From: Collimonas fungivorans
Lineage (GTDB): Bacteria; Pseudomonadota; Gammaproteobacteria; Burkholderiales; Burkholderiaceae_D
Assembly: GCF_001584145.1 (NCBI RefSeq)
Contig: NZ_CP013232.1
Span: 1,798,001 to 1,862,000 of the forward strand
DNA: 64,000 bases
Direction of reading: 5' to 3'
The stretch's first letter is position 1. Each line of letters starts with the position of its first letter. The translations under genes and the position numbers were made by a program. Under the pieces are notes generated by a model. It ran no database searches, was not told the origin of the DNA, and worked only from the letters and a program-made list of their open reading frames with translations. Shown piece after piece: positions 8,215 through 47,478 of the stretch.

Positions 8215-8257
8215 TCCGGCGCACTTATTTTGTACTTATTGCCGTGAAATTATTGCC

Positions 8258-25029: not shown

Positions 25030-26610
25030 ATGCACTCAAAAATCCTCATCCTCGATTTCGGCTCCCAGGTTACCCAACTGATCGCACGGCGCGTGCGCGA
25101 TGCTGGCGTGTTTTCTGAAGTGTTTCCCTACGATGTGTCGGATGAATTCGTCCGCAACTACGGCGCCTCCGGCATCATCCTGTCGGGCGGCCCGAACAGC
25201 GTCACCGACGGCGACACCCCGCGCGCGCCGCAAGCGGTGTTCGAGCTGGGCGTGCCGGTATTCGGCATCTGCTACGGCATGCAAACCATGGCCGAGCAGC
25301 TGGGCGGCAAGGTCGAGATGGGCAAGGTACGCGAGTTCGGCTACGCCGAAGTGCGCGCCCGCGGCCACAGTGCGCTGCTGGAAGGCATCAGCGATTTTGT
25401 GACGCCCGAATCGCATTCCATGCTGAAAGTCTGGATGAGCCACGGCGACAAGGTCGATCACATGCCGCCTGGTTTCAAGCTGATGGCATCGACGCCGAAC
25501 TGCCCGATCGCCGGCATGGCCGACGACGAGCGCCGTTTCTACGCGGTGCAGTTCCATCCGGAAGTCACGCATACGGTCAAGGGTGAAGCCATCCTGAGCC
25601 GCTTCGTGATCGATATCTGCGGCTGCAAGCCGGACTGGAACATGCCCGACTACATCGCCGAAGCGGTTGAGTCGATCCGCCAGCAGGTCGGCAGCGACGA
25701 AGTGATCCTGGGCCTGTCCGGCGGCGTCGACAGCAGCGTTGCTGCAGCCTTGATCCACCGCGCCATCGGCGACCAGCTGACCTGCGTCTTCGTCGACCAC
25801 GGCCTGCTGCGCCTGGACGAAGGCAAGATGGTGATGGAGATGTTCGCCCAGAACCTCGGCGTCAAGGTGATCCATGTCGACGCCACCGCCCAGTTCATGG
25901 GGCACCTGGCCGGCGTCACCGATCCGGAAGCCAAGCGCAAGATCATCGGCCGCGAATTCGTCGAAGTGTTCCAGGTCGAATCCGCCAAGCTGCAGAACGC
26001 CAAATGGCTGGCGCAGGGCACGATCTACCCGGATGTCATCGAAAGCGCCGGCAAGGGCAAGAACGCCGCGCACACCATCAAGAGCCACCACAACGTTGGC
26101 GGCCTGCCGGAAACCCTGAACCTGAAATTGCTGGAGCCGCTGCGCGAGCTGTTCAAGGACGAAGTGCGCAAGCTTGGTGTCGCCCTCGGCTTGCCGCACG
26201 CGATGGTATACCGCCATCCGTTCCCAGGCCCGGGCCTCGGTGTGCGCATCCTGGGAGAAGTAAAAAAGGAATTCGCCGACCTGCTGCGCCGCGCCGACGC
26301 CATCTTCATCGAAGAACTGCGCAACACCAAGGACGACCAGGACGAAAGCTGGTACGACAAGACCAGCCAGGCGTTTGCGGTGTTCCTGCCGGTGAAATCA
26401 GTCGGCGTGATGGGCGATGGCCGCACCTACGAATACGTGGTGGCCTTGCGCGCAGTGCAGACCCAGGATTTCATGACTGCGCATTGGGCACATCTGCCGC
26501 ATGAGTTGCTGGGACGGGTGTCGAACCGCATCATCAATGAAGTGCGCGGGATCAATCGGGTGGTGTACGATATTTCGGGCAAGCCGCCTGCGACTATCGA
26601 GTGGGAATAA
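25030..26610 (+). CDS. guaA: GMP synthase (glutamine-hydrolysing)
   Basis: Aminates XMP to GMP with glutamine and ATP. 526 residues: class I glutamine amidotransferase domain (catalytic C81 in [11 protein letters not shown]176 and E178 in FHPE), ATP pyrophosphatase domain (P-loop SGGVDSS at 230-236) and C-terminal dimerisation domain ending in PPATIEWE. The last codons form the attachment site of the downstream island. The present GAG TGG GAA TAA end was probably supplied by the island; the displaced chromosomal copy at the far end reads GAG TGG GAG TGA, so the protein is unchanged. Confidence 0.98.
26598..26606. other. Left attachment site (attL) core in guaA
   Basis: The 9-bp core CGAGTGGGA at the very end of guaA recurs at 45364-45372. 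The integrase gene starts 330 bp inside. The guaA 3' end is a known integration hotspot for tyrosine-integrase islands. Core identity is seen directly; the exact crossover point is inferred. Confidence 0.8.
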
Positions 26611-26935
26611 GGGAAGTATTTTTCCCATATAAATCAATAACTTAAAAAATTACTCAAAAATAGTTAACGAGAATGTGGTTTCTCTAAGTTGTTGATTTTA
26701 AAGGTATTAAGAATTAGTTTTCGTTCTAATGCCACTTCCAAGGTGGTGAATCTGACGGTAAAACTGACGGGGTGCATGAGGCCTTTCCATTGGACCTTTT
26801 TCGTGCTTCCACAGCAATACCGTCTGTGACGGTAATATCTATGCGCATTAGCTAAGCTCCATGCGGGCTCGCAGGGATATGTAGGTGTCGTGATAGGTGA
26901 CGGCAATCGGCCGTCTCAATCAGGAGACCAATCCC
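26611..26935 (+). other. Non-coding left end of the island with arm-type repeats
   Basis: 325 bp of AT-rich sequence between guaA and the integrase without a credible gene. It carries TGACGGTAAAACTGACGG at 26753-26770, TGACGGTAA at 26827-26835 and a variant GTGACGGCAA at 26897-26906. The same GACGGTAA motif appears twice at the right end of the island. GGGAA/TTCCC just after the guaA stop (26611-26626) may form a small hairpin. Confidence 0.6.
26753..26835. repeat. GACGGTAA direct repeats, left island end
   Basis: GACGGTAA at 26754-26761 and 26828-26835, with a partial copy GACGGGG at 26766. They match those at 45283 and 45295. Spacing and location at both ends of an integrase-bearing element fit integrase arm-type or recombination-directionality-factor sites (inference). 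Confidence 0.55.
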
Positions 26936-28171
26936 ATGCTCACAGACTTTGCCTTGCGCAACCTTAAACCTCGCGCGACCCCTTACAAAGCCGCAGATCG
27001 AGATGGCATGTACGCCGCCATCTCGCCGAAAGGCACTATTTCCTTCCGATACGACTACCGGATCAATGGCCGGCGTGAGACGCTGACCATCGGTCGCTAT
27101 GGCTTCGGCGGCATCTCACTTGCCGAAGCCCGGGAACGGCTGCGAAATGCTAGACGGCTGCTGGGTGAGGGAACTTCACCAGCACTACAGAAGCAGCGGG
27201 AGAAGGCTCGTGGACCCGAAACGCAGACTTTCAGCGATCATGCGACCCGGTGGCTTTATGGAGCCACCATGGCAGAGTCGACGCGATCGATGCGAAAGAG
27301 CGTACTGGATCGCGACATCCTGCCCAATTTTAAAAAGCGTCTTCTCTGCGAAATTCATGGTGAAGATCTGCGGGCGCTTTGTATGCGCGTGAAAGCGCGC
27401 GGTGCTCCAGCAACTGCCGTTCAAATTCGCGACATCGTGAAGCAGATCTATGGTTACGCGAATTTGCATGGAGAGAAAGTAGCAAACCCGGCCGACAGCG
27501 TAGATGCAGCTTCCATTGCGACTTTCGTGGCGAAGGACCGAGCCTTGTCACCGCAGGAGATTCACCTGATGTCCAAGCAATTGGAGTCTGTAGCTACCTA
27601 TCCGACCATCCGGCTGGCGTTGCGCATGATCTTGTTGACGCTGGTGCGTAAGAGTGAACTGATAGAGGCGACTTGGGACGAGATTGATTTCGAGAATGCG
27701 ATCTGGACGATTCCAAAACAGCGTATGAAGGGGCGTAAGCCTCATGTGGTCTATCTGTCGCGACAAGCGCTAGACATCTTCATGGCACTGCATACTTGTG
27801 CCGCAGGATCTAAGTTCGTGCTGCCGTCGCGTTACGATGCTGATCGATGCATGTCACGTGCAACTCTGAACAGGGTCACGCAGATTGTTGTAGAACGAGC
27901 CAAGACAGCGGGCGTACCGTTGGAGTCGTTTACTGTTCACGATCTACGTCGCACTGGCTCGACACTCTTGAATGAAGCGGGCTTCAACCGTGACTGGATT
28001 GAGAAGTGCTTGGCTCACGATGAGGGGCGTTCTTCGCGCTCGATCTACAACAAAGCCGAGTATGCCGAACAGCGGCGCCACATGCTGCAGGAATGGGCGA
28101 ATATGGTTGATGCTTGGGCGGAAGAGCGTGCCTATACTTCCACGCTGTTCCCGGCGCCTAAAGGAGGGTGA
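26936..28171 (+). CDS. Tyrosine recombinase/integrase of the island (P4/Bcep22-like)
   Basis: 411 residues. The N-terminal DUF4102 arm-binding domain (LTDFALRNLKPRATPYKAAD; YGFGGISLAEARERL) is followed by a core-binding domain and a C-terminal catalytic domain. Catalytic residues are R238 (LVRKSEL), H335-x-x-R338 (HDLRRTGSTLL), H361 (LAHDE) and nucleophile Y371 (IYNKAEY). The ATG at 26936 follows CAGGAGA; an upstream in-frame start lacks family similarity. Its position just inside guaA and transcription away from it fit the enzyme that inserted the 18.8-kb island. It appears intact, so excision may still be possible. Confidence 0.95.
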   Translation: MLTDFALRNLKPRATPYKAADRDGMYAAISPKGTISFRYDYRINGRRETLTIGRYGFGGISLAEARERLRNARRLLGEGTSPALQKQREKARGPETQTFSDHATRWLYGATMAESTRSMRKSVLDRDILPNFKKRLLCEIHGEDLRALCMRVKARGAPATAVQIRDIVKQIYGYANLHGEKVANPADSVDAASIATFVAKDRALSPQEIHLMSKQLESVATYPTIRLALRMILLTLVRKSELIEATWDEIDFENAIWTIPKQRMKGRKPHVVYLSRQALDIFMALHTCAAGSKFVLPSRYDADRCMSRATLNRVTQIVVERAKTAGVPLESFTVHDLRRTGSTLLNEAGFNRDWIEKCLAHDEGRSSRSIYNKAEYAEQRRHMLQEWANMVDAWAEERAYTSTLFPAPKGG

Positions 28172-28191
28172 CAAGTCATTTATCAGTCAAC

Positions 28192-28227
28192 TTGACAAGT
28201 GTCAGAAGTTTTTGCATAATTCTGACA
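28192..28227 (+). promoter_or_regulatory. Promoter with palindromic operator for the AbiE pair
   Basis: -35 TTGACA (28192-28197), exactly 17 bp, then -10 CATAAT (28215-28220). TGTCAGAA (28200-28207) and TTCTGACA (28220-28227) form a perfect 8-bp inverted repeat that fills the spacer and overlaps the -10. Binding there would block RNA polymerase, as expected for the autorepressing antitoxin of type IV AbiE systems. Confidence 0.8.
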
Positions 28228-28242
28228 AATAGGGCGTTTCAT

Positions 28243-28839
28243 ATGCAAACCATTGCCAAACAAGTACTGGAATACGCAGCCGGATTGCCGGAAGGCACCC
28301 CTTTGGTCGCGAAGGAGCTTCTGCATTTGGGTGGCAGGGCTGCTGTTGATCAAGTGCTCTCTCGCCTGGTGAAGCGCGGTGCCTTGTTGCGGGCTGGGCG
28401 AGGTATTTACGTTTTACCCGTGGAGAGCCGTTTCGGGACGCATGCGCCGTCCACCAGCAAAATGGTAGAGGGACTGGCTGTCCAGCGTGGGGAAACGATC
28501 GTGCTCCACGGGGCAGCTGCGGCCAATGCGCTTGGTCTCACTACCCAAGTGCCGATGAAGGCTATCTATCTGACATCCGGGCGCAATCGACGTCTGAGGG
28601 TTGGCGCGCAAACGGTCGAATTCCGGCACGCGCCAATCTGGCAACTGATCTTTCCTGGTCGTCCAGCGGGAGAAGTAGTGCGAGCGCTCGCTTGGCTGGG
28701 GCCTGAGAAGGCTGGCGAAGCACTGCGCAAGCTTCGGTCCAAACTGCAACCGTCCGAACTCGAAGAAGTCGCATCGGCGCGTGCGCGCCTGCCGACCTGG
28801 ATGGCGCAAGAAGTAAGCGCTTTGCTGGCGCATGGCTGA
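28243..28839 (+). CDS. AbiEi-like antitoxin/transcriptional repressor (DUF6088)
   Basis: 198 residues. An N-terminal winged-helix region (VLEYAAGLPEGTPLVAKELLHLGGRAAVDQVLSRLVKRGALLRAGRGIYVLP, reported here as residues 8-58 in outline) precedes a C-terminal domain with ALGLTTQVPMKAIYLTSG and RHAPIW. This is the architecture of AbiEi/DUF6088 antitoxins, which repress their own promoter and counter the partner toxin without direct binding (type IV). It overlaps the toxin gene by 8 bp. The ATG at 28243 lies 23 bp after the -10. Confidence 0.85.
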   Translation: MQTIAKQVLEYAAGLPEGTPLVAKELLHLGGRAAVDQVLSRLVKRGALLRAGRGIYVLPVESRFGTHAPSTSKMVEGLAVQRGETIVLHGAAAANALGLTTQVPMKAIYLTSGRNRRLRVGAQTVEFRHAPIWQLIFPGRPAGEVVRALAWLGPEKAGEALRKLRSKLQPSELEEVASARARLPTWMAQEVSALLAHG

Positions 28840-29878
28840 GTTTTTCGAACTCTCCACTGCTGAGCGTCTGGAGGCGCTCAACGCGGCTGCCAGCAGTTCC
28901 GGCCGTCTGCCTCATCTGCTTGAAAAAGATATCTGGGTCGTCTGGTCGTTGCGGCACCTGTTCGATGGTCCGCATGCAGATCATCTGGTTTTTAAGGGTG
29001 GCACATCTCTGTCTAAGGCCTACGGTGTCATCCGCCGGTTTTCGGAAGATGTCGATTTGACCTACGACATCCGCGCGATCGCAGGCGATCTGGTTGGAGA
29101 CGCCGATGTTCCCCTGCCAGTTAGCAAGAGCCAAGAAAAGAAGTGGAGCAAAGAAATTCGGGCGCGCTTGGCAGAATGGGTTGCCAGCGAAATCGTGCCG
29201 AGGCTCAAGCAGGACCTTGAGCAGCAGTCTCTGCCCGCATTGGTACGCGCCGAAGATGACAAGGTCTTTATCGATTACATTCCGTTATCCGCTGGTACGG
29301 GCTATGTTGCCCCGGCCGTCATGCTGGAGTTTGGTGCTCGTTCTACCGGCGAACCCAGCGAACCACGTCTCATCCAGTGTGATGCGGCTACGTACCTGCC
29401 GATGCTTGTGTTTCCCACTGCCACGCCGCAGGTGATGCGCGCCGAGCGTACCTTCTGGGAAAAGGCCACGGCGATTCATGTCTTCTGCGCTCAAGGTACT
29501 TTCCGTGGCGGCGAACGCTTCGCCCGTCATTGGCATGACGTGGCTCGGCTTGATAAGGCCGGATTCGTTGACGCAGCCATCGCGGACACGGCGCTCGGCA
29601 AAGCAGTTGCCGATCACAAGAGTATTTTCTTCGCGGAGAAATCCTCGCATGGAGAACTGATCGATTACCACGCTGCAGTTTCTGGTGCCCTGCAGCTTGT
29701 ACCAGATGACGGTGCGCTGGTCACGCTTGCTTCCGACTATCAGCACATGGTCGATGACGGTTTGTTCCTGGATGACGCTGAGCCTTTTGAGGTTCTGCTG
29801 GAACGATGCCGAATCATTCAGCAAAAGGCAAATACAAAACCGTCTCAGGACGCGATTTTCCTAGGCGCAACCGTGTAG
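28832..29878 (+). CDS. AbiEii/AbiGii-family nucleotidyltransferase toxin
   Basis: 348 residues of the DNA polymerase beta-like nucleotidyltransferase superfamily. The signature KGGTSLSKAYG (residues 55-65) and the metal-binding EDVDL (72-76) are intact. A later block FWEKATAIHVF...RHWHDVARL is also typical. Family members transfer nucleotides to tRNA or block GTP use and cause abortive infection. Translation is coupled to the antitoxin through the 8-bp overlap. Its position directly after the integrase suggests a role in island stabilisation and/or phage defence. Confidence 0.88.
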   Translation: MAEFFELSTAERLEALNAAASSSGRLPHLLEKDIWVVWSLRHLFDGPHADHLVFKGGTSLSKAYGVIRRFSEDVDLTYDIRAIAGDLVGDADVPLPVSKSQEKKWSKEIRARLAEWVASEIVPRLKQDLEQQSLPALVRAEDDKVFIDYIPLSAGTGYVAPAVMLEFGARSTGEPSEPRLIQCDAATYLPMLVFPTATPQVMRAERTFWEKATAIHVFCAQGTFRGGERFARHWHDVARLDKAGFVDAAIADTALGKAVADHKSIFFAEKSSHGELIDYHAAVSGALQLVPDDGALVTLASDYQHMVDDGLFLDDAEPFEVLLERCRIIQQKANTKPSQDAIFLGATV

Positions 29879-29908: not shown

Positions 29909-30202
29909 ATGTACCTTTCAGAAATCCAGATCAAGAATTTTCGCCAGTTCGGGGCTGAAGAACAGATTTTCTGTGTGTCGTTTCATGAGGGCATGACCGC
30001 GCTTGGCGGTGAAAATGATGTCAAAAAATCCTCTGTCGTCGATGCGATTCGCCATGTGCATCTGACCCGCGACATTGAGTTCATGCGGCCGCAGCCTGAT
30101 GATTTTCACATTCGTCTGGATATGCAGCCTGCTGTAGATGTCACCACCTGCAGCAGGCTATTGAAGCTGCCCGACTCATCCGTACTGACCGGAGATCAAT
30201 GA
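29909..30202 (+). pseudogene. N-terminal remnant of an OLD-family AAA ATPase
   Basis: 97 residues. The start MYLSEIQIKNFRQFG and following block are those of an OLD/RecF-type ATP-dependent nuclease. The Walker A region reads GENDVKKSS where GENDAGKSS/T is expected, so the key Gly before Lys is lost. After about 65 residues similarity ends and a stop follows; the ATPase lobe, signature motif and TOPRIM are missing. It may be a remnant displaced by the genes that follow, or a short protein kept for another reason. The next ATG lies one base after the stop. Confidence 0.65.
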
Positions 30203-30203
30203 A

Positions 30204-31628
30204 ATGGCCAAGACCATCGTATCGTCTTGGCTAACAACATTGCGGCTACATGTCGAATCGAAACCTTGCGTTCTGCTGCGGTTGGACGAAGCCGACAGCA
30301 CCCAGCTTAGGGAGTCGCGGCTTGGCTTCAATGAATTTACTCTGGCTCGGCCGCACGAACTTTTATCAGGCATTAAGACGCCAACAGTGTGTCTAATCTT
30401 CGAGACAGCTTCGAGCTGGGTGCGAGAGGAGGATGCCTACAAGCATGCTTATATCGGGATCGTAAGCTCACGCAGTGCAGTTACCACACTCGACACTCGT
30501 ATCAAAATCAAGCGCGCAGTACGCATCGAGCCGGGTACGGAGCAGGCTCTCTTGAAACTCCTCGGTACCAGCTCTCATGCTGACCAGCTGCGGAAAAAGC
30601 TAGAACTGGCGGCGCCAGTCATTGTGCTATCGCCCAAACTTAGTAGCGCGCTAATCAGCTGTCTGGCTGGTATTGCTGGCAATGAAGGTCCGATGCGAGC
30701 AGTTATCGAATCACTTCATGCGCCACAGCGCTATACGAATTTTTCCGCTGTGCAGGAGGATGCTGTACAGACGGCGTTGAAGGCCTTCGGCTTGGGCGCG
30801 AGCGATCGAGCTGAACACGTTGAACTATTCGAAGGGAAGGCGACGGCGCTGGCGCGAGTGCCGCTGCTTGAGGACGCGGTGATCGAGAATCCACGGGCGT
30901 CAGCCAACAATGATCTATTCCTCACGGTTCAGCAGCGGATGCCGCTGATCGAAGACTCTGCAATAGAGAAAGACGCTCGCTCGGTTCCTGGCTACACACT
31001 TACGTCTAGTGATCTCACAGGCCGCGCCGTATTCAAGAAGGGGCAGGAAAGGCTTGAAGTGTTTACGGCTAACCGACGTGACCTGGAACACGTCTTCGGT
31101 GTGGATTTGATTTACCTGAATCTGACCAAAAAGAACATCGTTATGGTTCAGTACAAGATGCTGGAACCGAACCGCCGGGATGGACAGCCTTCCGATTGGT
31201 TGTACCGGCCAGAAGCCAGCATGACGAAAGAGGTAGCGCGGATGAAGATGTTCGCCAAACAGCATGCACCTGGCCCACTTGAATACCGCCTCAACCCGCA
31301 AGTGTTCTATCTCAAATTTGTTAAGCGTGACGGTGCGCTAAGTAGCGGCGGTATTGTCACGCCAATCGATCACTACGAACAGTTGCTTGCTGATCCTGTT
31401 TGCAAAGGACCGCGCAATGCCATCCGGATTAGCTATGAGTCATTGGGTGGTCGGTATCTGCGTCAAGGAGCCTTTCTGGATCTTATACAGTCGGGGTACA
31501 TCGGCGCGCATGCAGCGACGACCGATTACCTCAACACTTTGGTGGATGCTGTATTGAAGGGGAATCGTGCGGTCATCATGGCCGTGCAATCTCCAAGCGA
31601 CATTGCTAACGAAACGGGTTCGTCATGA
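30204..31628 (+). CDS. Uncharacterised protein with predicted PD-(D/E)XK nuclease core
   Basis: 474 residues, no recognised family. The N-terminal half has no motif I can name. In the C-terminal half, residues 293-318 read DLEHVFGVD followed by hydrophobic strands and VQYKM. The spacing E295, D301, Q316-x-K318 fits a restriction-endonuclease-like (Q/E)xK active site. GGAGA about 8 bp upstream supports the ATG at 30204. Its stop overlaps the natural start of the next gene (ATGA), so both are translated together. Function is inferred only; a nuclease effector or DNA-sensing partner in a defence cassette is plausible. Confidence 0.6.
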   Translation: MAKTIVSSWLTTLRLHVESKPCVLLRLDEADSTQLRESRLGFNEFTLARPHELLSGIKTPTVCLIFETASSWVREEDAYKHAYIGIVSSRSAVTTLDTRIKIKRAVRIEPGTEQALLKLLGTSSHADQLRKKLELAAPVIVLSPKLSSALISCLAGIAGNEGPMRAVIESLHAPQRYTNFSAVQEDAVQTALKAFGLGASDRAEHVELFEGKATALARVPLLEDAVIENPRASANNDLFLTVQQRMPLIEDSAIEKDARSVPGYTLTSSDLTGRAVFKKGQERLEVFTANRRDLEHVFGVDLIYLNLTKKNIVMVQYKMLEPNRRDGQPSDWLYRPEASMTKEVARMKMFAKQHAPGPLEYRLNPQVFYLKFVKRDGALSSGGIVTPIDHYEQLLADPVCKGPRNAIRISYESLGGRYLRQGAFLDLIQSGYIGAHAATTDYLNTLVDAVLKGNRAVIMAVQSPSDIANETGSS

Positions 31629-33159
31629 CCATCAAGTCGATTTCGCCCTCGCGCCTAATGCATCGCTGTGTAGCGATGTCGGGTATGCAGCGTTTTTTTT
31701 CGTCTCCGGTGTCGAGGCGTTAATGGGAGCGCCAGCCCCACGAATTGCGCTTGATACCTTGCGAGACCGCATTGCCGAAGGCATTAAAGAAAGTGCGAAG
31801 TCATACGACGTTCCTGCCGTCTGCGTCAGGGTAGGAATTCAGGAGCGTGTGGAGGAGGGCGATACCGACGAAGCCTTTCGAAGCCGCAAGGTCTATGTCA
31901 AGAGCCGATTGATGGAGCGTGACCAGCCTGCGTTGCTGGTCATCGCAATTGCTGTTCTAAAGGAATTCGACGTCCCCAGTTTGGCTGAGGCTGTGAGCGA
32001 ACTGACCGTACACGCGGAGCACCGCATCACAGAAATTACTCGGCGAGACGCACTGAAGGTTCTAAATCGTCTTGATTCGTTATTCAATGACGTTGACCTT
32101 TTCGAAGGGCTCAATATCATTTCGTACGAGTACCTGACCTACGATGGCGTCGATCACCATCTCAATTTCTTACCCGCCCTCTCCAAAGACGTCGTCCAAC
32201 ATTATGTACGCAATCCCGACGACTCCAACGAAGAAGTACTGATTCGATGTGGTGCACTGACATGCAGCCAGACCAAGTTTTTCGCGCTACTGGAAAAATT
32301 GCTTCACCCGGTTGTTCGACGAGGCGATGAGCAGGTCGAGCTAGTAATCCACTTGAATGCCGTTCTACGGCCCGATGGATTTCAGGCCGTAGTGGTCGGT
32401 GAGCAATCCACGCATCCGATCTACGCCGTTCAGCGCATAGGAAATGGTGTTGCAGGCGCGGTCAAGAATCTGATCTTCGCGTCCGTAGGACCAAAGCCGG
32501 AATTGATACTGCGCGATGCGGTCAGCAATGACATCGAAATTACTAAGCATGCAGACATGTGTCTGGTGTTTGACCGTCCGTTGCCGGTGAGTGGCCTGGC
32601 GTGGGTAGATATGGCCGAATGGTGGCAAGAGCGCCAAGGGCTGGCGGAGTTGAAATCCGCGCGTCAATCTTTGGGGGAGCGCCTGAAGCGATCGGTGGAG
32701 CTTTCGCATTCTCCAGGGGAATACGCGATCTTTCGTACCTACCACGAAGTGTTTGGCCCGAAACTTGGAGATCGTTTACCTGCCTTAATCCCACAGGTCT
32801 ATCTTCACTACGATCCTTTCACGCAGGCCGAGCGCATGCAACTGGGAAAAGACAGCGTGCTGGCACGACAACGCATGGATTTCTTGATGTTATTGGATAG
32901 CCGTGTTCGTATCGTGATTGAGGTTGATGGGCAGCAGCACTACGCGGAGGGGGGTAGAGCGTCTCCCGCTCATTACGCCATGATGGTCGAGGAAGATAGG
33001 CGGTTGCGACTCCAAGGTTATGAGCTATACCGGTTTGGCGGCGCCGAGTTTCCCGATGCGGACAAGAGCAATGATCGCTATGTTGTAGGACCGCAGTCCA
33101 AGAAAGTGGTGATCGATTTTTTTGAACGTTTGTTCGACAGACATAAGGTCAAGCCGTGA
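31625..33159 (+). CDS. Predicted DUF559/Vsr-like nuclease protein, possibly frameshifted at a T8 run
   Basis: Large protein of unknown family. Its C-terminal domain (about 32860-33060) contains RMDFLMLL...RIVIEVDGQQHY and a downstream DRRLRLQGYELYRFGG. This is the D...ExDGxQH pattern of Vsr/DUF559-type PD-(D/E)XK nucleases. The uninterrupted reading runs 31567-33159 (530 codons), but its first about 40 residues shadow the previous gene. The natural start appears to be the ATG at 31625 (MTIKSISPSRLMHRC), in the other frame, joining at TTTTTTTT (31693-31700) if one T is added or -1 slippage occurs. An alternative start at 31723 follows GAGG. The stop overlaps the next gene's GTG. Confidence 0.6.
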
Positions 33160-33875
33160 CAATTCCCAGCGATGATGAAGAACCGCAATTGGACGACCTC
33201 TTTGATTCGATCGATGGTGTCTCATTCCCTGTATCCGGTGACAAACTTTTCAAAAGTGGTTCCTGGGTTGACAGCGCGCAGCTTAACCACCGCTTGTATG
33301 GCGACAAGTGGTCGGTCTATGCAACAGGCTACAAGGATGCTGCGGACATGCTGGTGGATCAAGCGGCAGGGACGGGTCGACATCTGGACTTTCTGGTCTA
33401 TCCCATCGTCTTTTTGTACCGCCAGCATATCGAATTGATGGTCAAGAGTCTGATCCGCTCGCTGTGGTTGTTGTTGGAGAAGAATCCCTCGGACAAGCAG
33501 GCTGGGTTGGTGGGCCATCGCCTGGGAACATTCTGGGCCATCTTGCGCCCTCTCTTGGAGGAGCATGCGCCCTGTCAATCAACGGTCGCCTTGGATCAGA
33601 CGGGAAGTTTGATCGACGAATTGTGTGCTGTTGATCCAGAGTCTATGGGTTTTAGATATCCCCACGGCATTCCAGATAAGACAGGAGCCCGATTGCCGAC
33701 ACTCAGTGGCCTGGCCGAGGTTGATCTACGGAACTTGAAAGCTGTGATGGAAAAAATTGCTGTCCTGTTAGGGGCCTGTGAGATGTCCATTGATGCGGCT
33801 TTGCAGAGCAAAGCCGAGATGCATGCTGAGTGTCTGTCCCTCAACGGGGCGAATGGAGATCCATATGGCCCTTGA
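33156..33875 (+). CDS. Uncharacterised protein, possibly HEPN-like helical
   Basis: 239 residues, predominantly helical. The segment YPIVFLYRQHIELMVKSLIRSLWLL resembles the second helix of HEPN-type proteins in outline, but no convincing Rx4-6H ribonuclease motif is placed, so membership is only suspected. It starts with GTG (33156) inside the stop codon of the upstream gene (GTGA) and is therefore coupled to it. It ends 90 bp before the DUF3800 gene. No function can be assigned; conservation of this adjacency in other genomes would be informative. Confidence 0.55.
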   Translation: MTIPSDDEEPQLDDLFDSIDGVSFPVSGDKLFKSGSWVDSAQLNHRLYGDKWSVYATGYKDAADMLVDQAAGTGRHLDFLVYPIVFLYRQHIELMVKSLIRSLWLLLEKNPSDKQAGLVGHRLGTFWAILRPLLEEHAPCQSTVALDQTGSLIDELCAVDPESMGFRYPHGIPDKTGARLPTLSGLAEVDLRNLKAVMEKIAVLLGACEMSIDAALQSKAEMHAECLSLNGANGDPYGP

Positions 33876-33965
33876 ATTGTTCGGAAGCATTGTATCGTCC
33901 AGTTTTTGGCCCGCGCACAAAATGGCGAAGGCAACACGCTCGTATGTCGTCGAAGAGAGCCGGCC

Positions 33966-35054
33966 ATGACTCTTTCGTTTTTCTTCGATGAGAGCGGACA
34001 CAGCGGCGATCTCGTCAAATCAGGCGTGGCCTACGATTTTCTGGATCAGCCGTTTTTTGTCTTGGCGGCGTTAGGCATCGAAGATGAAGCGCCGCTTGTG
34101 CAGCAGATCGAGGCGATGCGGCTCAGGCATAGGATACCGGCAGGTGAACTGAAATCGAAGTCGCTCCAAAGCCAATCAGCCTTCGTTGCCGAGTTGCTCT
34201 CTGAAGTGCTCGACGCGGGGCTCCCGCTTTTCATCGAGGTTGTCGACAAGCGCTACTTCATTTGCATGAACTTGGTAGACCACCAGTTGTTGCCGCCCGT
34301 GATGGGTTTTCCTGACGGTTCGCAGCTTCATTTTCTGAAGAACGTTGCCGTCGACTTCCTGTACGACGAGGTCTCTGAGCACGTCCTGAACCGGTTTGTC
34401 GAGGCTTGCCTCTCTCCGTCCGATCATTCGCTGATGAGCTTGTTCGGAAGTCTGATGCTGTTTTCTGCGGGAGAGTCCACGATGCCCAAGAATCAGGATA
34501 TACGTGACGGCGTGCACCGCATGGTCATTGAAGCCGCAACGGAATACGGCGAGATGCGGAAGGCTGACCCAACGGCTTACCTGAGGTTTCTTCCTTCGCC
34601 CGATTTGAACAGGCACAGCAAACAGGTATGGATGCTTCCCAATCTTTCGTCGTTCACGAATATCTACGCAAGGATCAACCTGTTCCGTAGGCGAAAGCTA
34701 GCAGGCGTGCGTCTTGTGCACGACCAGCAATTGGAGGTCGAAGAAATCCTGCGTGAGGCCAAACGCACTGCGGAGGGTATTAAGGATTCAGGCTTTGAGG
34801 CATTCACACCCGCTGCCGACTATATGTTTCATGAGCAGGCATCGCTTGAATTCGCGGCATCGCATGAGTCGGTAGGCATTCAGGCTGCCGATGTGATCGC
34901 AGGGACTGTGATGAGATTCTTTCGAGATATGCAGCGCAACCCGGAGAAAATTCATCCTGACGTCGATAGGTCGATGCGCGAGTTACAGAAGCGCTCCGAT
35001 GAAATTACTGCATTTGGCTTGAACCAAGTCGTGCCGCGCCGTCACATGCTGTGA
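33966..35054 (+). CDS. DUF3800 domain-containing protein
   Basis: 362 residues beginning MTLSFFFDESGHSGD, with the family's DESG signature (residues 8-11). Near the C-terminus is the matching acidic motif SVGIQAADVIAGTVMRFF. Acidic residues at both ends plus alternating strands and helices suggest an RNase H-like fold nuclease, as proposed for DUF3800; biochemical function is unknown. The ATG at 33966 follows GAGAG. DUF3800 genes recur in defence islands. It is the last member of the packed block that starts near 29909. Confidence 0.78.
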   Translation: MTLSFFFDESGHSGDLVKSGVAYDFLDQPFFVLAALGIEDEAPLVQQIEAMRLRHRIPAGELKSKSLQSQSAFVAELLSEVLDAGLPLFIEVVDKRYFICMNLVDHQLLPPVMGFPDGSQLHFLKNVAVDFLYDEVSEHVLNRFVEACLSPSDHSLMSLFGSLMLFSAGESTMPKNQDIRDGVHRMVIEAATEYGEMRKADPTAYLRFLPSPDLNRHSKQVWMLPNLSSFTNIYARINLFRRRKLAGVRLVHDQQLEVEEILREAKRTAEGIKDSGFEAFTPAADYMFHEQASLEFAASHESVGIQAADVIAGTVMRFFRDMQRNPEKIHPDVDRSMRELQKRSDEITAFGLNQVVPRRHML

Positions 35055-35126
35055 GATGTCTGTGATTCAGAACGATCTATTTGCTGGATAAAGCTCTTTA
35101 TTTTGAATAATTTTGGGGACAGGGGA

Positions 35127-36038
35127 ATGACGAAATCAGCCGTAGATGTTCGAACCTTGCTTGCTGCTGCGGCCGACAGCATGTGGGCTACGTTTAAGGC
35201 AAGCGCAGCTAGCACTCGTCCTGATCATAAGGGTGGGCCGCGCGAGCAGCAAGTACGCCAGTTCCTCAAGGAGCGTCTTCCGCCTAAATGGGGTGTCACG
35301 CGCGGGCATGTGTTTTTTGCCGGTAACGCTACATCACAGGAGTTCGACGTGATTGTCTATGACGCACTAAATTGCCCAAGCTGGACACTGGACGGCAGCG
35401 ATGATCCGCGGCGCCTGGTACCCCTGGAGGCAGTGATCGGCGTCATTGAAGTTAAGTCGACACTTGACGATCGTACTCTGAAATCCGCGATCGACAAGAT
35501 CGCCGAGTTTGATTCGATTGTTGAGAATGGAGATATCGATAGTTCCTATCGCCCGTTTCGCTATTTGTTTGCCTACCGACTTGATCGCGATGCCGATTTC
35601 GATGGCTGGGGTGGTCCAAACCGAATCCTCACCCGCTACGCGGGGGCACGTACTCAACCGGATGGTGTGTTTGTGCTGGACTCAGAATTTTCTGTCCTGA
35701 CTGCGCGACACGATATTGCTCGTTCGTTCGCGCTTCACCGTGGAGAAACCGTCGATGAAGTTCTTGCGAAAAGTTGGGATGTGCAAAATGAGGAAATCCG
35801 TCGCGACATTGAGTTGGACCCGTCATACTGTCACGACTATTTCACCACTCGGGCAAACGATGGGCTACTCCTCCTCTCATTTTTGACATTCGTGCTGGAA
35901 TCGGCTTCGTCCTATCGAGTGTCCGAAATTGACTATGCAGATATTTTCTGTCGCTGGGGTGGGCCGATGTTGGGAGGATTGCTGCACTTTCACGAACCGA
36001 GTAATTTAGATTTGTTATCCGTTCCAATCATGAAGTAG
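35127..36038 (+). CDS. DUF6602-like predicted nuclease
   Basis: 303 residues. The N-terminal region has REQQVRQFLKERLPPKWGVTRGHVF (residues 39-63 in outline), then EFDVIVYD (72-79) and VIGVIEVKS (104-111). E40, D74 and E108-x-K110 form a complete PD-(D/E)XK-type constellation, as in DUF6602 proteins and type I/IV restriction subunits. AGGGGA just upstream supports the ATG at 35127; a TTG at 35103 is less likely. It lies 72 bp after the DUF3800 gene and 90 bp before the OLD nuclease, so it may belong to either block. Confidence 0.72.
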   Translation: MTKSAVDVRTLLAAAADSMWATFKASAASTRPDHKGGPREQQVRQFLKERLPPKWGVTRGHVFFAGNATSQEFDVIVYDALNCPSWTLDGSDDPRRLVPLEAVIGVIEVKSTLDDRTLKSAIDKIAEFDSIVENGDIDSSYRPFRYLFAYRLDRDADFDGWGGPNRILTRYAGARTQPDGVFVLDSEFSVLTARHDIARSFALHRGETVDEVLAKSWDVQNEEIRRDIELDPSYCHDYFTTRANDGLLLLSFLTFVLESASSYRVSEIDYADIFCRWGGPMLGGLLHFHEPSNLDLLSVPIMK

Positions 36039-36127
36039 ACGGTCAATCCATTCGAGTAGAATTTTGACTAAAAATATTTATGTCGCGAAGGCCCATCTCG
36101 CGGAGCTTCTTTCAATGAGGGAGACAC

Positions 36128-37837
36128 ATGAAAATAAGAAAAATCAGTATCCAGAACTTCAGGGGCATCAAGCAGTTGGAATGGAATTTACCTGATCAGA
36201 AAATATTTTGTCTGATAGGGAAGGGAGACTCTGCCAAGTCGACGGTCCTTGAGGCCATCCGATGTGTTTTCAATCCTCAGTGGAACCTTGCATTCAACGA
36301 CTCTGACTTCCACCTTTGTAAGACAGATGGCCGGATTCAAATCGAGATCATCATTGGTGATCTACTCGACGAATTCTGTTCCGAACAGAGGTACGGTGCG
36401 CATTTGCGAGGCTGGGATAGGATCACTTCCACGCTTCACGACGAACCTGAGGATCACGATGAAGTAGTGCTCAGCGTTCGCCTCAGCGTGGCCAAAGACC
36501 TAGAGCCGAAGTGGAAAATCGTCACGGCTAGAAACCCCGACGGCGTTGACTTCAGATCGGCTGATCGAGCCAAAGTCAACGTTGGCCTTATCGGTTCCTA
36601 TAGCGAGAAGCAGTTGACTTGGGCCGCCGGCACCGCGCTGGCCAGGATCACAGAATCCGACAATCTGAACGAGTCGCTCGTTGATGCGACACGTGCTGCA
36701 CGAAGCTCGCTTGATGGACAGCGAGCCGTTGCGTTGAAGAATTTCGATGCGGCAGCAACCCGATCGGAGGCCGTGGCAAAGAAACTCGGAATTCCCGTAG
36801 ACGACTCTTTCAAGGCTCATCTTGATCTCGGCTCGATCAGTATTCGCGTCGGCGGGTTGACGTTGCACGACGGCGACATGCCGTTACGTCAACTGGGACT
36901 TGGGTCTCGACGAATGCTGCTCTGTGGCATCCAGAAAGAAAACCTCGAAGAGCAACACATTACGCTGTTCGACGAACTTGAACTTGGGTTGGAGCCCCAT
37001 CGGATCGCGCGGCTGATCAAGCACATTAAGGACGACGCGACAGGGCAGTACTTCCTGACGACACATTCGCCCTCTGTGCTGAGAGAGTTGACGGTGGAGC
37101 AGCTCCACGTCGTGCACAAGGCGGCCGGCAACGTGGAGGTGGTGGCAACGACGGGTAAGGAACTAGAGGGACTCAACATCCAAGGACATGTCCGGTCCAG
37201 CGCGGAAGCGTTCCTCTCTATGAAGGTCATCGTCTGCGAGGGTGCAACGGAGGTGGGTTTTCTGCGGGGCCTCGATAACCTTTGGGCAGCGTCCAGCTTG
37301 GCCCCGTTTTCTTATCTCGGGGCGGTATTGCTGGATGCGCATGGCGCCAGCAAGGTTAAGAGCCTTGCCTCCGGATTCAAGGCGCTGCATTACGAGGTGT
37401 GTGCAGTTGCCGATGGTGATGCACCGGCACAGTTCTCTCCGCAGGATGCGGAAGACTTGACGGCGAAGGGGATCGAGGTACTCATCTGGTCCGATCAATT
37501 GGCTCTGGAGCAGCGCGCGATGTTTGATCTACCTTGGGCCAGTGTCCAGGCAAGTGTCAAGTTGGCGCAGGACTCTGGGCTTGATGTGCATGCCAACGTC
37601 CGGTCGAAATGGAACGTCGAGCTCGACATGGATATTATGAAGTGGGTCGATTCGCGCGACCTTCGTAAGGCAATCGGCGATGCTGCGAAAGCCAAGGCAT
37701 CACCGTGGTTCAAGACCATTTCCGATGCGCAAACGTGGTTTGAACTTATTGCACCAGCTTTCGATGACCCCGAATTCAAACAGCGGGAGATGGCTACCAA
37801 GCTGAGTCGCCTTCGCGTCTGGGCGGATCATGGATGA
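36128..37837 (+). CDS. OLD-family ATP-dependent endonuclease, Gabija GajA-like
   Basis: 569 residues. The N-terminal ABC-type ATPase starts MKIRKISIQNFRGIKQLEW, has Walker A at 31-39 (GKGDSAKST, with Ala for the usual Gly, which may be a subfamily feature) and Walker B TLFDELELGLEP, then the switch His in YFLTTHSPSVL. The C-terminal TOPRIM nuclease domain has KVIVCEGATEVGFLRGL (catalytic Glu) and CAVADGDAPAQ (DxD). This is the GajA layout. It overlaps the helicase gene by 8 bp. By analogy it would nick phage DNA when nucleotide pools fall. GAGGGAGA precedes the ATG. Confidence 0.85.
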   Translation: MKIRKISIQNFRGIKQLEWNLPDQKIFCLIGKGDSAKSTVLEAIRCVFNPQWNLAFNDSDFHLCKTDGRIQIEIIIGDLLDEFCSEQRYGAHLRGWDRITSTLHDEPEDHDEVVLSVRLSVAKDLEPKWKIVTARNPDGVDFRSADRAKVNVGLIGSYSEKQLTWAAGTALARITESDNLNESLVDATRAARSSLDGQRAVALKNFDAAATRSEAVAKKLGIPVDDSFKAHLDLGSISIRVGGLTLHDGDMPLRQLGLGSRRMLLCGIQKENLEEQHITLFDELELGLEPHRIARLIKHIKDDATGQYFLTTHSPSVLRELTVEQLHVVHKAAGNVEVVATTGKELEGLNIQGHVRSSAEAFLSMKVIVCEGATEVGFLRGLDNLWAASSLAPFSYLGAVLLDAHGASKVKSLASGFKALHYEVCAVADGDAPAQFSPQDAEDLTAKGIEVLIWSDQLALEQRAMFDLPWASVQASVKLAQDSGLDVHANVRSKWNVELDMDIMKWVDSRDLRKAIGDAAKAKASPWFKTISDAQTWFELIAPAFDDPEFKQREMATKLSRLRVWADHG

Positions 37838-39260
37838 TGATTTGCCAGCGAAGCTCGCGGCATTTTCTGGCAAGGGATATGTGATCGCGCCGGCCGGCTA
37901 CGGCAAGACGCATCTCATTGCTATGGCGGTCAAAGCCTCATTACAGCGGCAGTTAATCCTGACGCACACTTATGCCGGGGTCAATGCGATCAAGAAGAAG
38001 ATGCAGATGCTGTCCGTTCCAGCATCGCGCTACCAGATCGACACCATTGCAAGCTGGACGCTCCGGTTGTGCCTTTACTTTCCCAATACGTCCAAGTGGA
38101 ATAAGGAGTACCCCAGCGGAAAAGAGTGGGCGAAGCTTTATGAGGCGGGAACTGCGTTGCTAGCTAAGCCATTCGTTGAGCGATTTGTTAGAAGCTCATA
38201 TTCCGGCGTCTACGTGGACGAGTATCAGGATTGCTCATCTCAGCAACATACATTGGTAGCGGCAATCGGAAAACATCTGTCTTGCCGACTCTTAGGTGAT
38301 CCGATGCAGGCGATCTTTGACTTTGCCGACAAGCCGGTCGATTGGGAGCGAGATATCTATCCTCACTATCAGTTGCTGGGCGAACTGAAGAAGCCTTGGC
38401 GATGGCACTCGGCTGGCGCTCCAGAACTGGGAGGTTGGCTCGATGAGGCCAGCAAGCGGCTTCGTGCGGGCGAGAGGATTTCGATCGCCACACCGTTGCC
38501 AAAGGGCGTCAACAGGGTTGCGATCGATCTAACTGACTTCACGAACCCCAAGCGCCTCAACTGTTTCTTTTCTTTTTTAGACAATGACGATGCTGTGATT
38601 GCTATCCACTCTGGCGATCAAAAGTCGAAGAATAAGACGCACAAATTGGCACAGGCGCTCGGAGGCAGGTTTTCCAGCATTGAAGAGGTCGAAGGAAAAG
38701 ACCTGTTCAGTTTCATAAAGAAGCTGGAAGCTGCCAAGACAGTTTCCGAGAGGCTCTGTCTGGTCATCGAGTTCGCCAAAAAATGCTGTAACGCCGTAGA
38801 TGGCATCTTCAGCGCCGCCACCAAACGTGGTGAGCAGGCGAGAGCTACGAAGGCGACAAAGTATCCCGACATACTGGAACTCGCCAATCGCTATCTGGCT
38901 GACCCGTCAAGTCCGAATCTGGCGCGCCTGCTGGCCGCTATTCAATCCAATCCAGAGACGTCAACGTATCGGCGGGACCTGCTGAACAGATTCATGAAGA
39001 TCCTGCGCGTGCATGAGGAAAACGCCGCATTAAGTCTTCAGGAAAGCGCGCAGCGTTACCAGCGCGACTTTCGTCATTCAGGCCGGCCGATTCGGCATAA
39101 CAAGCTTATTGGAACTACTTTGCTTGTCAAAGGCCTGGAGTACGACCGCGCCATCATTTTGGAAGCCGATTCGATGTCTCCTAAAGAGCTGTATGTCGCA
39201 TTAACGCGTGGCGCGAAGACTATCACGATTGTTACACTACGCAACACCATTCCGGCCTGA
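37830..39260 (+). CDS. UvrD-like superfamily 1 helicase, Gabija GajB-like
   Basis: 476 residues, short for UvrD as GajB proteins are. Walker A is APAGYGKTH (20-28). Walker B/DEXX is VYVDEYQDCS, followed by LLGDPMQAIF (motif III) and LKKPWRW (motif IV). The late motifs are TLLVKGLEYDRAIIL (V) and ELYVALTRGAKTI (VI). It is translationally coupled to the OLD nuclease (8-bp overlap), as in two-gene Gabija operons and class 2 OLD systems, so the pair is read as a complete anti-phage system. Confidence 0.87.
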   Translation: MDDDLPAKLAAFSGKGYVIAPAGYGKTHLIAMAVKASLQRQLILTHTYAGVNAIKKKMQMLSVPASRYQIDTIASWTLRLCLYFPNTSKWNKEYPSGKEWAKLYEAGTALLAKPFVERFVRSSYSGVYVDEYQDCSSQQHTLVAAIGKHLSCRLLGDPMQAIFDFADKPVDWERDIYPHYQLLGELKKPWRWHSAGAPELGGWLDEASKRLRAGERISIATPLPKGVNRVAIDLTDFTNPKRLNCFFSFLDNDDAVIAIHSGDQKSKNKTHKLAQALGGRFSSIEEVEGKDLFSFIKKLEAAKTVSERLCLVIEFAKKCCNAVDGIFSAATKRGEQARATKATKYPDILELANRYLADPSSPNLARLLAAIQSNPETSTYRRDLLNRFMKILRVHEENAALSLQESAQRYQRDFRHSGRPIRHNKLIGTTLLVKGLEYDRAIILEADSMSPKELYVALTRGAKTITIVTLRNTIPA

Positions 39261-40935: not shown

Positions 40936-41481
40936 GATGGGTGAAAAATCGTAGTGCTAAGGACGCTGCAAGCAATCGTGACGATCATGCCGTCGTTCGC
41001 CAAGCTTGTATCGTGGGCAGAACCAGAGACGCAAGGTAACGCGTGTCCTCTGCCGTGCCGGAGCAGTCGAATGACAAGGATATGGTCACGAGAGACGCGG
41101 TCGTGATGAGTGGCCGAACAGTGTCCAGAAATCCTAGTACTTCTTCGTCCGACCACGCGTCGCCAGGATCGTCGAGACCTATCCACTAGAACGGTTGTCG
41201 ATTTCCTAGCGGATATTTTCTCCAAGGAACACGCACTTTTTGAATAAATGAGTTAACCCGAAATAGCTCCATTGTCTTTTTTTCGCCACCGTTAACGCAT
41301 GGCTAGCGACAGATACGGTATTAAAAGATTTGTGATAATGTTTATGATTATGTATGCAGCTGAGGCACGAGGATAAATGGCCTTGGTGACTTTGTGTCAT
41401 AGTGACCTGTTCGTCCTTCGTTTCGAACACCGCACACAAAATGATGTCGCACAATAATAAATGAGGGGAAGGCGGGAAAAA
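40936..41481 (+). other. Gene-free stretch between two defence modules
   Basis: About 545 bp. The first 280 bp are GC-rich without a convincing reading frame in any direction. The last 200 bp are AT-rich and probably carry the promoter of the three-component ABC operon. No repeats, tRNA or hairpin with T-run stood out. It separates the HEPN/PLD pair from the ABC genes, so they are probably separate transcription units. Confidence 0.4.
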
Positions 41482-42693
41482 ATGACTCAACCGAGCGTGT
41501 CGACCTTCGGCGCTGGTGCGTCGATGGTGGGTTACCTCTACCAGGTACGAATCGCACTGTTGTGGGCGATTCGCCGCAGCCGCGTCAGCGACTTCACGGT
41601 CAGCATCGAGACCTTGGACGATGTGAGCTTCGAAGTCGATGGCGAACCCGCCGCCGTCCTGCAGGCCAAGCATTCGCTTAACGCCGCTGCCTCATTGACC
41701 GATTTCAGTCCCGAACTATGGAAGACGCTACGCGTCTGGATGGTCGGCCTGGCCAGCGGCGAGGTTCCTCTCGATACGGCCCGTTTCCTAATCGCTACGG
41801 CAGACGCACCGCCGGGGAGTGCGTGTGCCGCGATGGGAATCAGCCCTGAACGCGACATCGCCGAGGCTGCCAAGCGGCTTAAGCATGCCGCTGTCACCTC
41901 AAGCAACAATGACCTCAAGAGTGCATTCGACGCATACCTGACTCTGGGCGAAGCCGAGCGAGAACATCTACTGTCGCGCATCTACGTCGTGCCGACCCAA
42001 CCCGATGCGGCCGCAATCCTCGAACAGTTGCAAGCCGAGCTGTACCACGTCTCTTTGCACCACCAGGATCTCTCGGTGCAAATGCTGGAGGGCTGGTGGT
42101 TCAAACGAGTGTTGAACGAGCTGGTTCATCCTGACGGGGGCATCCCTCGCGCCGAGATCGACGCCCAGATTTCGGAGATTCAGGAATCGCTCAAGCCCGA
42201 CTCGCTACCCATTGACGAAGAACTCGACGCGCTAATGGTCGCGCTTGATCAGTTGCCGGAGTTCTCGACTCGTCCGTTCTATAAGCAGGTGGAACTTGTC
42301 GGTGGTAGTCAACTGCGCATCCGCAACGCGATCACCAGCTACCTGCAGGCCTTCAGGCAGCGTTCTGCATGGACCCGCCACGACCTGCTATTCGATGCCG
42401 ATCTGCAGAAGTACGACAAGCGCCTGCATGCCGAGTGGGAGCTGCAGTACGCACAGGTCTGCGACGAACTTGGCCCAAATGCTACTGAGACCGCGATGAC
42501 CCGGGCGGGACGCGCAATCCTGAAGTGGGCCGAGGATGCGCATCTCCCAATCCGATTTGGCGTCAACGTCCCTTGGGTATGTCGCGGTTCATTGCACATG
42601 CTTGCAGAAGACCGTCGCCTCGGTTGGCACCCAGAATTCGAGACCCGGCTCAAGGCCATCTTCGACGCGCCCGTTGAAGGGAAAACGGCATGA
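41482..42693 (+). CDS. ABC-three component (ABC-3C) system nuclease-type component
   Basis: 403 residues. The N-terminal about 70 residues carry GASMVGYLYQVRIALLWAI, then SIETLDDVSFEV and VLQAKHSLN: E43, D47 and Q61-x-K63 fit a Cap4/DUF4297-like PD-(D/E)XK nuclease. The remainder is helical and matches in style the C-terminal domain of ABC-3C system proteins. The ATG at 41482 has AAGGCGGG before it; an in-frame ATG 7 codons upstream is less likely. It overlaps the middle component (ATGA). In ABC-3C systems an SMC/ABC-like ATPase is thought to license such an effector on invading DNA. Confidence 0.75.
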   Translation: MTQPSVSTFGAGASMVGYLYQVRIALLWAIRRSRVSDFTVSIETLDDVSFEVDGEPAAVLQAKHSLNAAASLTDFSPELWKTLRVWMVGLASGEVPLDTARFLIATADAPPGSACAAMGISPERDIAEAAKRLKHAAVTSSNNDLKSAFDAYLTLGEAEREHLLSRIYVVPTQPDAAAILEQLQAELYHVSLHHQDLSVQMLEGWWFKRVLNELVHPDGGIPRAEIDAQISEIQESLKPDSLPIDEELDALMVALDQLPEFSTRPFYKQVELVGGSQLRIRNAITSYLQAFRQRSAWTRHDLLFDADLQKYDKRLHAEWELQYAQVCDELGPNATETAMTRAGRAILKWAEDAHLPIRFGVNVPWVCRGSLHMLAEDRRLGWHPEFETRLKAIFDAPVEGKTA

Positions 42694-43205
42694 CGGCTTG
42701 GCAGGAGCGTACCATCGAGCAGCGCAACCTGCTCAATCCGGCCTTCTGCGCCATCGTCGTCTGGCACCTTGTGCGGGGCTACCGTACCGAATCGACAACG
42801 CTCGGAGTACCCGCTAACGGCTTGCCTGTCGAACTCGCATTCGTGGGAGCGAGTCTCGTGCTGCGTGGCCAGACGCGAGATCAGCTCCCTCGCACGATCG
42901 CCAGTTCGCTCGCCACCTGGGTGCACGACAATCCGCTGGAGCGTTCGGCCGTTGCGAAGGGTGTAGTTGTACTTAGGGACACCGTGCGGGAAGCCGTACT
43001 CTTCGGCGCGCTGCACGGAATGCTATCACTTGATGGTCGTCGGATCGACGCGAACGACGCCCAAACGAAGAAGATTAACGCCTACCTCCAAGCATCAAGC
43101 GACGAGGTGAAGGAGTGTATGCGCCTTGCCGTGTTCGTCGGCCGTTGGCTGTGCAAAGCGGGAGCGCCCCCGACCGTGTTGGCGCTGTTGGGAGTACAAG
43201 CATGA
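42690..43205 (+). CDS. ABC-3C system middle component
   Basis: 171 residues, small and helical (ERTIEQRNLLNPAFCAIVVW at the start; ASSLATWVHDNPLERSAVAKG; AYLQASSDEVKECMRLAVFVGRWLCKAG). Size, position and the NLLNPAFC opening fit the three-component ABC middle component, which contains a small wHTH-like or helical adaptor. It starts inside the preceding stop (ATGA) and its stop overlaps the ATPase ATG (ATGATT), so all three genes are translationally coupled. Confidence 0.75.
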   Translation: MTAWQERTIEQRNLLNPAFCAIVVWHLVRGYRTESTTLGVPANGLPVELAFVGASLVLRGQTRDQLPRTIASSLATWVHDNPLERSAVAKGVVVLRDTVREAVLFGALHGMLSLDGRRIDANDAQTKKINAYLQASSDEVKECMRLAVFVGRWLCKAGAPPTVLALLGVQA

Positions 43206-46471: not shown

Positions 46472-47478
46472 ATACGCGACAGGCGGCAACCGGCCAGTAG
46501 CAGCCTCTCGGCTCCTTTGCAGTTGTGCCCATCCCAAAGCCGACCCTCGGTAATCCCCCCAATTTTTAGAGCGATCATTTGGTCGGGGATTACCATCTGT
46601 TGCGACTCAAAAAAAGCGTCTAAAAGTGCCGTCTGAATTTCGCGTATGCGATCTCCGGCGGTGCCGGCATCACGACGACAAAGTTTGAAAGAGTATTTTT
46701 TAGTTTATGGGCAATAGGCCGGAATAATTGTTCAGGGCCGACTACTTACCTGAGATGGAGTGCACAGACGAACTCGCTACACCGACGGCCAGGTTAGCTG
46801 CTGCGTTGATGCGTGAGTCCCCTCGAGACGGGACCGTTTCCTCCCTTCGCGGCCGTCGCTGTCCTGCGCACAGGACAGCGCGTAAGAGTGAGTAACCCTG
46901 TTCTAGAGCTCCAAATATTGGCGGAAATTCCTACATTATTTTAAGGATTGCCTGATTGAAATTTATTCTGACATTCCTCACTATTGCAATTAGAGAATTA
47001 AATCAATACCTCTCTAAGCTAATAGCTGATGTTGCGACAAGAGACGTTGTGTGAAGTTTTTTACAGTGCAACTAGCCGGCATTATTTGATATTTCGGATT
47101 TGTTTCCAGACGACGAATACGTTAATAAAGATTGAAAATCTTATGTACTAATCCGGCTTTATTCAGATTGACCGAGCCGACTGTACTGGGCATCAATCTT
47201 CAAGACGAAGCGCAAATTCTACTTATTCTGTGCGACGTTCATCTCTAAAATCTGACCTCATTGCATAGAGGGCAGATGAAAAAAGAAAAGAATAGGCGGG
47301 AGCGGTTGGTACTGCCATATGCTCTTGCGGTTTTTTGCATTCATTGACAGCCATTCTATCTGCGATGGGCCAAAGGCGTCTTCGCAAGCAATTTTTCACC
47401 ACGTAATTTAGCGTAAGACACTGGGAGTACAAGTTTTTCAGACTGTGTTTGCCGCAAGTTATTCACTCGAGTAGATCC
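46472..47478. other. 1-kb gene-free stretch with two inverted repeats
   Basis: No credible gene. GGTAATCCCC (46549-46558) and GGGGATTACC (46585-46594) form a perfect 10-bp inverted repeat 26 bp apart. CGCTGTCCTG (46857-46866) and CAGGACAGCG (46871-46880) form a perfect hairpin without T-run. The last 500 bp are AT-rich and probably hold the promoter of the autotransporter gene. Confidence 0.45.

Follow-up and report, generated by a model that had tools for sequence, protein, structure and literature searches.

A stretch of 64,000 nucleotides from the 5.6-Mb chromosome of the soil bacterium Collimonas fungivorans (G000; contig NZ_CP013232.1, positions 1,798,001 to 1,862,000 of the forward strand; hereafter the window) was analysed for a run of four genes, designated A, B, C and DUF3800 (Table 1), that a first-pass annotation had put forward as one undescribed defence system. 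The analysis points to a mosaic defence island instead of one system, with gene A encoding a predicted modification-dependent nuclease that is often an extra gene of other operons, and this reading as a whole is considered probable. The mosaic origin of the stretch is held with high confidence, and it is regarded as close to certain that A, B, C and DUF3800 do not form one system. Gene structure, genomic context, conservation, breakpoint and predicted folds were all obtained by computation.

The same gene order was looked for in other genomes, and the four genes were not found together in conserved order, so that the single four-gene system was rejected; this result largely matches what the first-pass annotation had itself said would speak against its proposal. 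Of 392 family genomes, 9 had A, 16 had B and 10 had C, and 4 of 383 had the DUF3800 protein; each of these counts takes in the own genome as well as weak or partial matches. Across the phylum A was uncommon, being found in 4 of 398 genomes at E 1e-10, its own among them. Relatives of A were collected by scanning genome contigs for either of two conserved peptides, which gave 72 loci with flanks that reach at most 10 kb to either side and are in some cases ended by contig edges; none of the 72 carried a B or C homologue (E 1e-5) in its flanks. The B set comprised 30 loci (the window, 21 phage-like contigs, six other genomes and two plasmids), with L142, L143, L144 and L157 left out as B fragments, and A was present solely in the window and at none of the other 29. 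Outside the own genome, A occurred together with B in G316, on different contigs, and in G383, where a weak B match with stops lay megabases away; no further genome among the 392 held both A and C.

The junction was compared with two other genomes. In G275, a related genome, the DNA matched window positions 28169-29833 (AbiE, 89.8%) and 31745-36344 (91.5%), the latter running through B, C, DUF3800 and DUF6602 and ~216 bases into GajA, with B, C and DUF3800 being 87-96% identical to the window at the protein level. The place of the GajA remnant and A was taken there by a HamB helicase remnant (Hachiman; PADLOC 9.7e-128), of which the C-terminal part is kept, and an open reading frame (ORF) that reads as transposase-like. 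Since the homology starts at 31745, within the first codons of B, a breakpoint is placed between A and B. In G096, guaA, an integrase and AbiE were followed by only the end of B and half of C. Taken together, the two comparisons indicate that the island is a patchwork and that A and B have different histories; a possible pair of B and C in one lineage survives.

Gene A matched nothing in Pfam (up to E 10), PADLOC or NCBIfam, and profile searches against solved structures produced no relevant hit for any of A, B and C. The structure prediction gave an N-terminal PUA-like fold and a C-terminal PD-(D/E)XK domain. The QxK type of the nuclease, recognised already in the first-pass annotation, was borne out: E295, D301, Q316 and K318 were invariant in 67 of 67 aligned sequences and lay, with the catalytic residues intact, in a helix-strand-strand arrangement of the model. 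This invariance is partly built in for 31 of the rows, which were found through patterns containing D301 or Q316-K318; the remaining 36 rows, 35 from a protein search plus that of the window, are free of it. The closest folds to the N-terminal domain included base readers, and by its fold the domain falls among PUA-superfamily reader domains. The PUA-like fold group EVE/YTH/ASCH consists of modified-base readers. The modelled architecture is that of modification-dependent (type IV) restriction enzymes, and the family probably senses modified DNA. Sequence profiles gave no link to EVE: comparison with 26 EVE domains gave an hhalign probability of 0.1, the EVE family was not recognised, and a sequence-based identification of A with EVE was rejected, leaving the fold as the support for a reader domain. 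In a viral structure library, no hit for A reached E 0.001; a weaker one was named activating signal cointegrator, which we take to be ASCH. No description of the family was found in the literature searched, which did not cover supplementary files.

The neighbourhoods of A were tallied over loci L002-L073, where names were given only to neighbours tested directly (representatives) or assigned by blast cluster. A known or candidate defence gene lay on the strand of A within 100 bases in 32 of the 72 loci, as a raw count. The other 40 had no named defence neighbour; 17 of these had no same-strand neighbour that close, and for the remaining 23 a minority of the neighbours was tested. BREX genes flanked A in nine loci, mostly with PglX before and a DUF3644 gene after it, and GajB directly preceded it in seven (gap -46 to 53 bases, first-start ORFs). 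Most of the other partners were HsdM or HsdS (type I), Mod or Res (type III), AbiEii (L006, L038), LmuB (L026), an Avs1b-like gene (L024) and PD-Lambda-3 (L002). Overlaps of four bases were common and involved PglX, HsdS, Mod and AbiEii genes. A tree was built from 72 rows of 380-700 aa (peptide-scan relatives, family genomes and the window; shorter or split sequences dropped) and carried a long-branch warning. In this tree, the BREX-linked members formed one group (support 80/89), the type I label needed five changes, and the type III label needed four and was not clustered (500 of 500 shuffles as low). The Gabija label also needed four changes, which means that partners were exchanged. The nearest relatives of the window protein had as partner AbiEii, a 431-aa gene without known family, or a PD-Lambda-3 gene.

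Several single loci of A relatives were recorded. In L026 (6152-11356), LmuA-like, a 159-aa middle gene, LmuB and A stand in a row, the first three being relatives of the window set at 41461-45147 but with A attached. In L172 (G383; 7523-14139), an A relative lies near an oligonucleotide-cyclase gene (CBASS type) and, on the other side and past a 443-aa gene, near a GajA-GajB pair of the Gabija type of the window. The 431-aa protein is encoded three bases before A in L003, L004 (8681-9976), L005 and L013, and had no Pfam or PADLOC match (L003 tested); the A of L006, very close to the A of these four loci, follows AbiEii.

In the island, pieces of different defences were most probably joined and trimmed by integration and recombination at the 3' end of guaA. 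For the mechanism considered for A the chances seem about even. Its N-terminal PUA-like domain would turn a base of the phage DNA outwards and inspect it, and the QxK PD-(D/E)XK domain would cut when that base is modified; the binding of modified bases, cutting and phage defence are inferred. Members of the family are often additional genes within other defence operons or directly after them, and in the window A sits behind AbiE and a dead GajA fragment. Where modified phages get past such an operon, A would act as its second line. More tentatively, A may found an unnamed family of plug-in restriction modules, attached repeatedly to Gabija, BREX, type I and type III restriction-modification, AbiE and ABC-3C/Lamassu, a three-gene Gabija included. 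If so, several named systems would exist in a second form with an added layer against phages that evade the host operon through modified DNA. A nuclease family that works as proposed would link systems now listed separately and help to explain how restriction, BREX and Gabija cope with DNA-modifying phages.

Gene B had been annotated with a start at 31625, and the true start was found to be 31723, in agreement with the 478-aa length of its database record (P0149) and with homologues. The ATG at 31625 does overlap the stop of A (ATGA) but is out of the B frame and opens only 32 codons, which end in TAATG on the start of B, so that A and B do not overlap and 94 bases separate the stop of A from the start of B. 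The nearest named homologue, from Collimonas pratensis, was 88% identical. The DUF559/Vsr-like C-terminus of the first-pass annotation held in so far as residues D386, E400, D402, G403 and H406 of the predicted motif were invariant in 20 of 20 sequences, with Pfam DUF559 below its cut-off (13.0 bits against 20.6); what had been missed was the middle AbiJ_NTD3 domain (PF18860, 1.6e-41, 142 bits against a cut-off of 32.5). No HEPN family of Pfam matched B. B is a defence-type protein of the previously described AbiJ-NTD3 plus nuclease architecture, its nuclease part being putative. Membership of B in a wider operon was rejected, as neighbours differ between loci; L118-L130 share neighbours among themselves, and these B homologues lie in similar phage-like or integrative elements. 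Among plasmid records with a B match, 41 of 85 were from Streptomyces.

Gene B mostly stands alone, and in the lineage of the window it overlaps C, a partner with a HEPN fold. That B and C make up a separate pair, in which the HEPN-fold protein would be the partner of an AbiJ-NTD3 nuclease, is a serious possibility that falls somewhat short of even chances. The GTGA overlap recurs in G275, the end of B is followed by C in G096, and the suggestion that C might be HEPN-like agreed with its predicted fold, which is HEPN-like. Against such a unit, 28 of the 29 other B loci lacked a same-strand C; 27 had no C at all and L131 had a weak match on the opposite strand (E 2.1e-9), leaving the window and G275 as the loci with C adjoining B on the same strand, and the own genome, G275 (complete) and G096 (remnants) as the genomes in which the two are neighbours. 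A conserved Rx4-6H motif, likewise, was not present among 23 sequences of C, which showed sporadic matches at differing places, and C was rejected as a canonical HEPN RNase. Plasmid records with a homologue of C numbered 263, of which 192 were from Klebsiella or Escherichia. Two of the three homologues in L160, L162 and L163 lay between a gene of ~118 codons and an integrase gene, and the third behind a DUF6035 gene.

The origin of A may also be sought in a Gabija-type operon in which A was the third gene (GajA-GajB-A), GajA having been truncated and GajB lost in the window; this account is possible, though we lean against it. The headpiece, correctly taken for an OLD ATPase remnant, is an OLD/GajA N-terminus of 97 aa that has lost the Walker A glycine and ends one base before A. 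It fell in the same blast cluster as GajA of L007, L008, L010 and L053, four of the seven loci in which A directly follows GajB. At 29909-31628 no complete Gabija system was found, which would need a full-length OLD ATPase carrying both Walker A and TOPRIM and then GajB; no GajB precedes A. The tree speaks against this origin, in that the nearest relatives of A follow AbiEii, the 431-aa gene or a PD-Lambda-3 gene and not GajB, and so does the presence of AbiEi-AbiEii before A in three other loci (directly in L006 and L038, with one gene between in L017), from which it follows that A could have arrived with AbiE. The AbiE pair of the island is, in turn, present at ~90% DNA identity without an adjoining A in G275, G096 and G316, which counts against such an arrival.

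It is unlikely, though conceivable, that A senses a partner system or its inhibition and not a modified base, with the PUA-like domain binding protein, RNA or a nucleotide. The four-base overlaps of A with its partner genes and the lack of a sequence-level link to EVE would suit this idea, and precedent exists in PrrC, an embedded nuclease by which the inhibition of a type I system is sensed (PMC12707154). So many unrelated partners are nevertheless hard to reconcile with one specific protein contact, the catalytic residues are kept, and the base readers among the closest folds favour the sensing of modified DNA.

Finally, one undescribed system of A, B, C and DUF3800, with two nucleases and a HEPN-like effector, appears very improbable in spite of the shared strand, the close packing, the GTGA overlap, the short frame linking the stop of A to the start of B and the co-occurrence of B, C and DUF3800 in G275, because A and B or C keep apart at the other loci examined, G275 has the B-C-DUF3800 block without A, B occurs without C and C without B, and G366, in which neither B nor C was found, has a DUF3800 homologue. 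Close spacing of same-strand genes is usual in bacteria, and the breakpoint between A and B shows that genes packed tightly in a defence island need not make up one system.

The island follows guaA in the order tyrosine integrase, AbiEi, AbiEii, GajA remnant, A, B, C, DUF3800, DUF6602, Gabija pair, two genes with matches to the candidate families PDC-S64 and PDC-S05, and an ABC-3C/Lamassu-type set (Table 1). The first-pass frames of the GajA remnant, A, C and DUF3800 were all present in the ORF list, which gives DUF3800 from an earlier TTG at 33906. Of the overlaps first described, the GTGA at 33156 is real, the ATGA belongs to the 32-codon frame, and C and DUF3800 are separated by a 90-base gap. 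The DUF3800 assignment and the defence setting were both upheld, with AbiE upstream and DUF6602 and an apparently complete Gabija pair downstream, just beyond the region first annotated.

Table 1. Features of the guaA-associated island and its insertion neighbour (window positions).
Feature	Position	Strand	Basis
guaA, insertion neighbour of island	25030..26610	+	ORF list; guaA-integrase-AbiE order also in G096
Tyrosine integrase	26936..28171	+	PF00589 9.5e-23
AbiEi antitoxin-like gene, start codon not settled	28168..28839	+	PADLOC 6.5e-66
AbiEii nucleotidyltransferase-like gene	28832..29878	+	PF08843 3.1e-35; PADLOC 8.5e-100
GajA ATPase remnant, N-terminal part only, Walker A glycine lost	29909..30202	+	PADLOC GajA 5.3e-20; compared with L010 GajA
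Gene A: predicted PUA-like reader (~residues 7-175) and QxK PD-(D/E)XK nuclease domain (~180-432)	30204..31628	+	Model, alignment; no family match
32-codon frame between A stop (ATGA) and B start (TAATG)	31625..31723	+	Sequence reading
Gene B: AbiJ-NTD3 and C-terminal Vsr/DUF559-like nuclease motif, 478 aa	31723..33159	+	Pfam, database record, homologues
Gene C: HEPN-like fold protein; start overlaps B stop (GTGA)	33156..33875	+	Model
DUF3800 gene	33966..35054	+	PF12686 1.5e-12; 96% identical copy adjoins B-C in G275
DUF6602 gene, NucC/PD_DExK-like, start codon not settled	35130..36038	+	PF20247 1.5e-21; PADLOC 1.9e-27
GajA of downstream Gabija pair	36128..37837	+	PADLOC 5.4e-197
GajB of downstream Gabija pair	37830..39260	+	PADLOC 1.5e-158
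ABC-3C/Lamassu-type set: LmuA-like, middle component, LmuB-like	41461..45147	+	Pfam/PADLOC scans

The DUF6602/NucC-like gene ends 89 bases upstream of the Gabija pair (region 35103-39260), and the protein behind GajB (39335-40255) had a PADLOC candidate match to PDC-S64 (1.9e-17). The LmuB-like gene (43115-45147) looks broken, its PADLOC match beginning only at profile position 74 and its start apparently lying in another frame. Scans of the window for tRNA and Rfam families gave no match, and a search for the ends of the island found no exact same-strand repeat of at least 14 bases between 26450-26900 and 26901-60000; one 13-base repeat is probably due to chance. Beyond the island, two large surface-protein-like genes at 47449-50319 (autotransporter-like) and 54143-58921 (repeat-rich and adhesin-like) were noted from their translations alone.

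With respect to known systems, the family of A has no name in the libraries searched, and the architecture of B, AbiJ-NTD3 followed by a restriction endonuclease (REase) domain, was described in 2013 (PMC3710099). Gene B likewise has AbiJ_NTD3 and then a REase-type motif; in that source the fused nuclease is named DUF2726, whereas B has a weak DUF559 match. Gene C differs from the HEPN superfamily in lacking a conserved Rx4-6H motif. Gabija is described as two proteins (PMC10681800), and no third Gabija gene of the A kind was found in the literature searched; in the window, a GajA remnant precedes A and a complete-looking pair is present as well, and A relatives directly follow GajB at the seven loci given above. 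For BREX, PMC12839542 reports auxiliary effectors that are PD-(D/E)XK nucleases encoded within the locus, and A relatives also lie in BREX loci; the available part of that paper does not single out a PUA-PD-(D/E)XK family, although its supplementary lists may include such proteins. In architecture A resembles the EVE-PD(D/E)XK combination named in PMC7641849, with which it shares an N-terminal PUA-like fold and a C-terminal nuclease domain, and from which it is set apart by the lack of an EVE profile match and of any Pfam match, by the QxK catalytic variant and by its frequent operon coupling to other defence systems.

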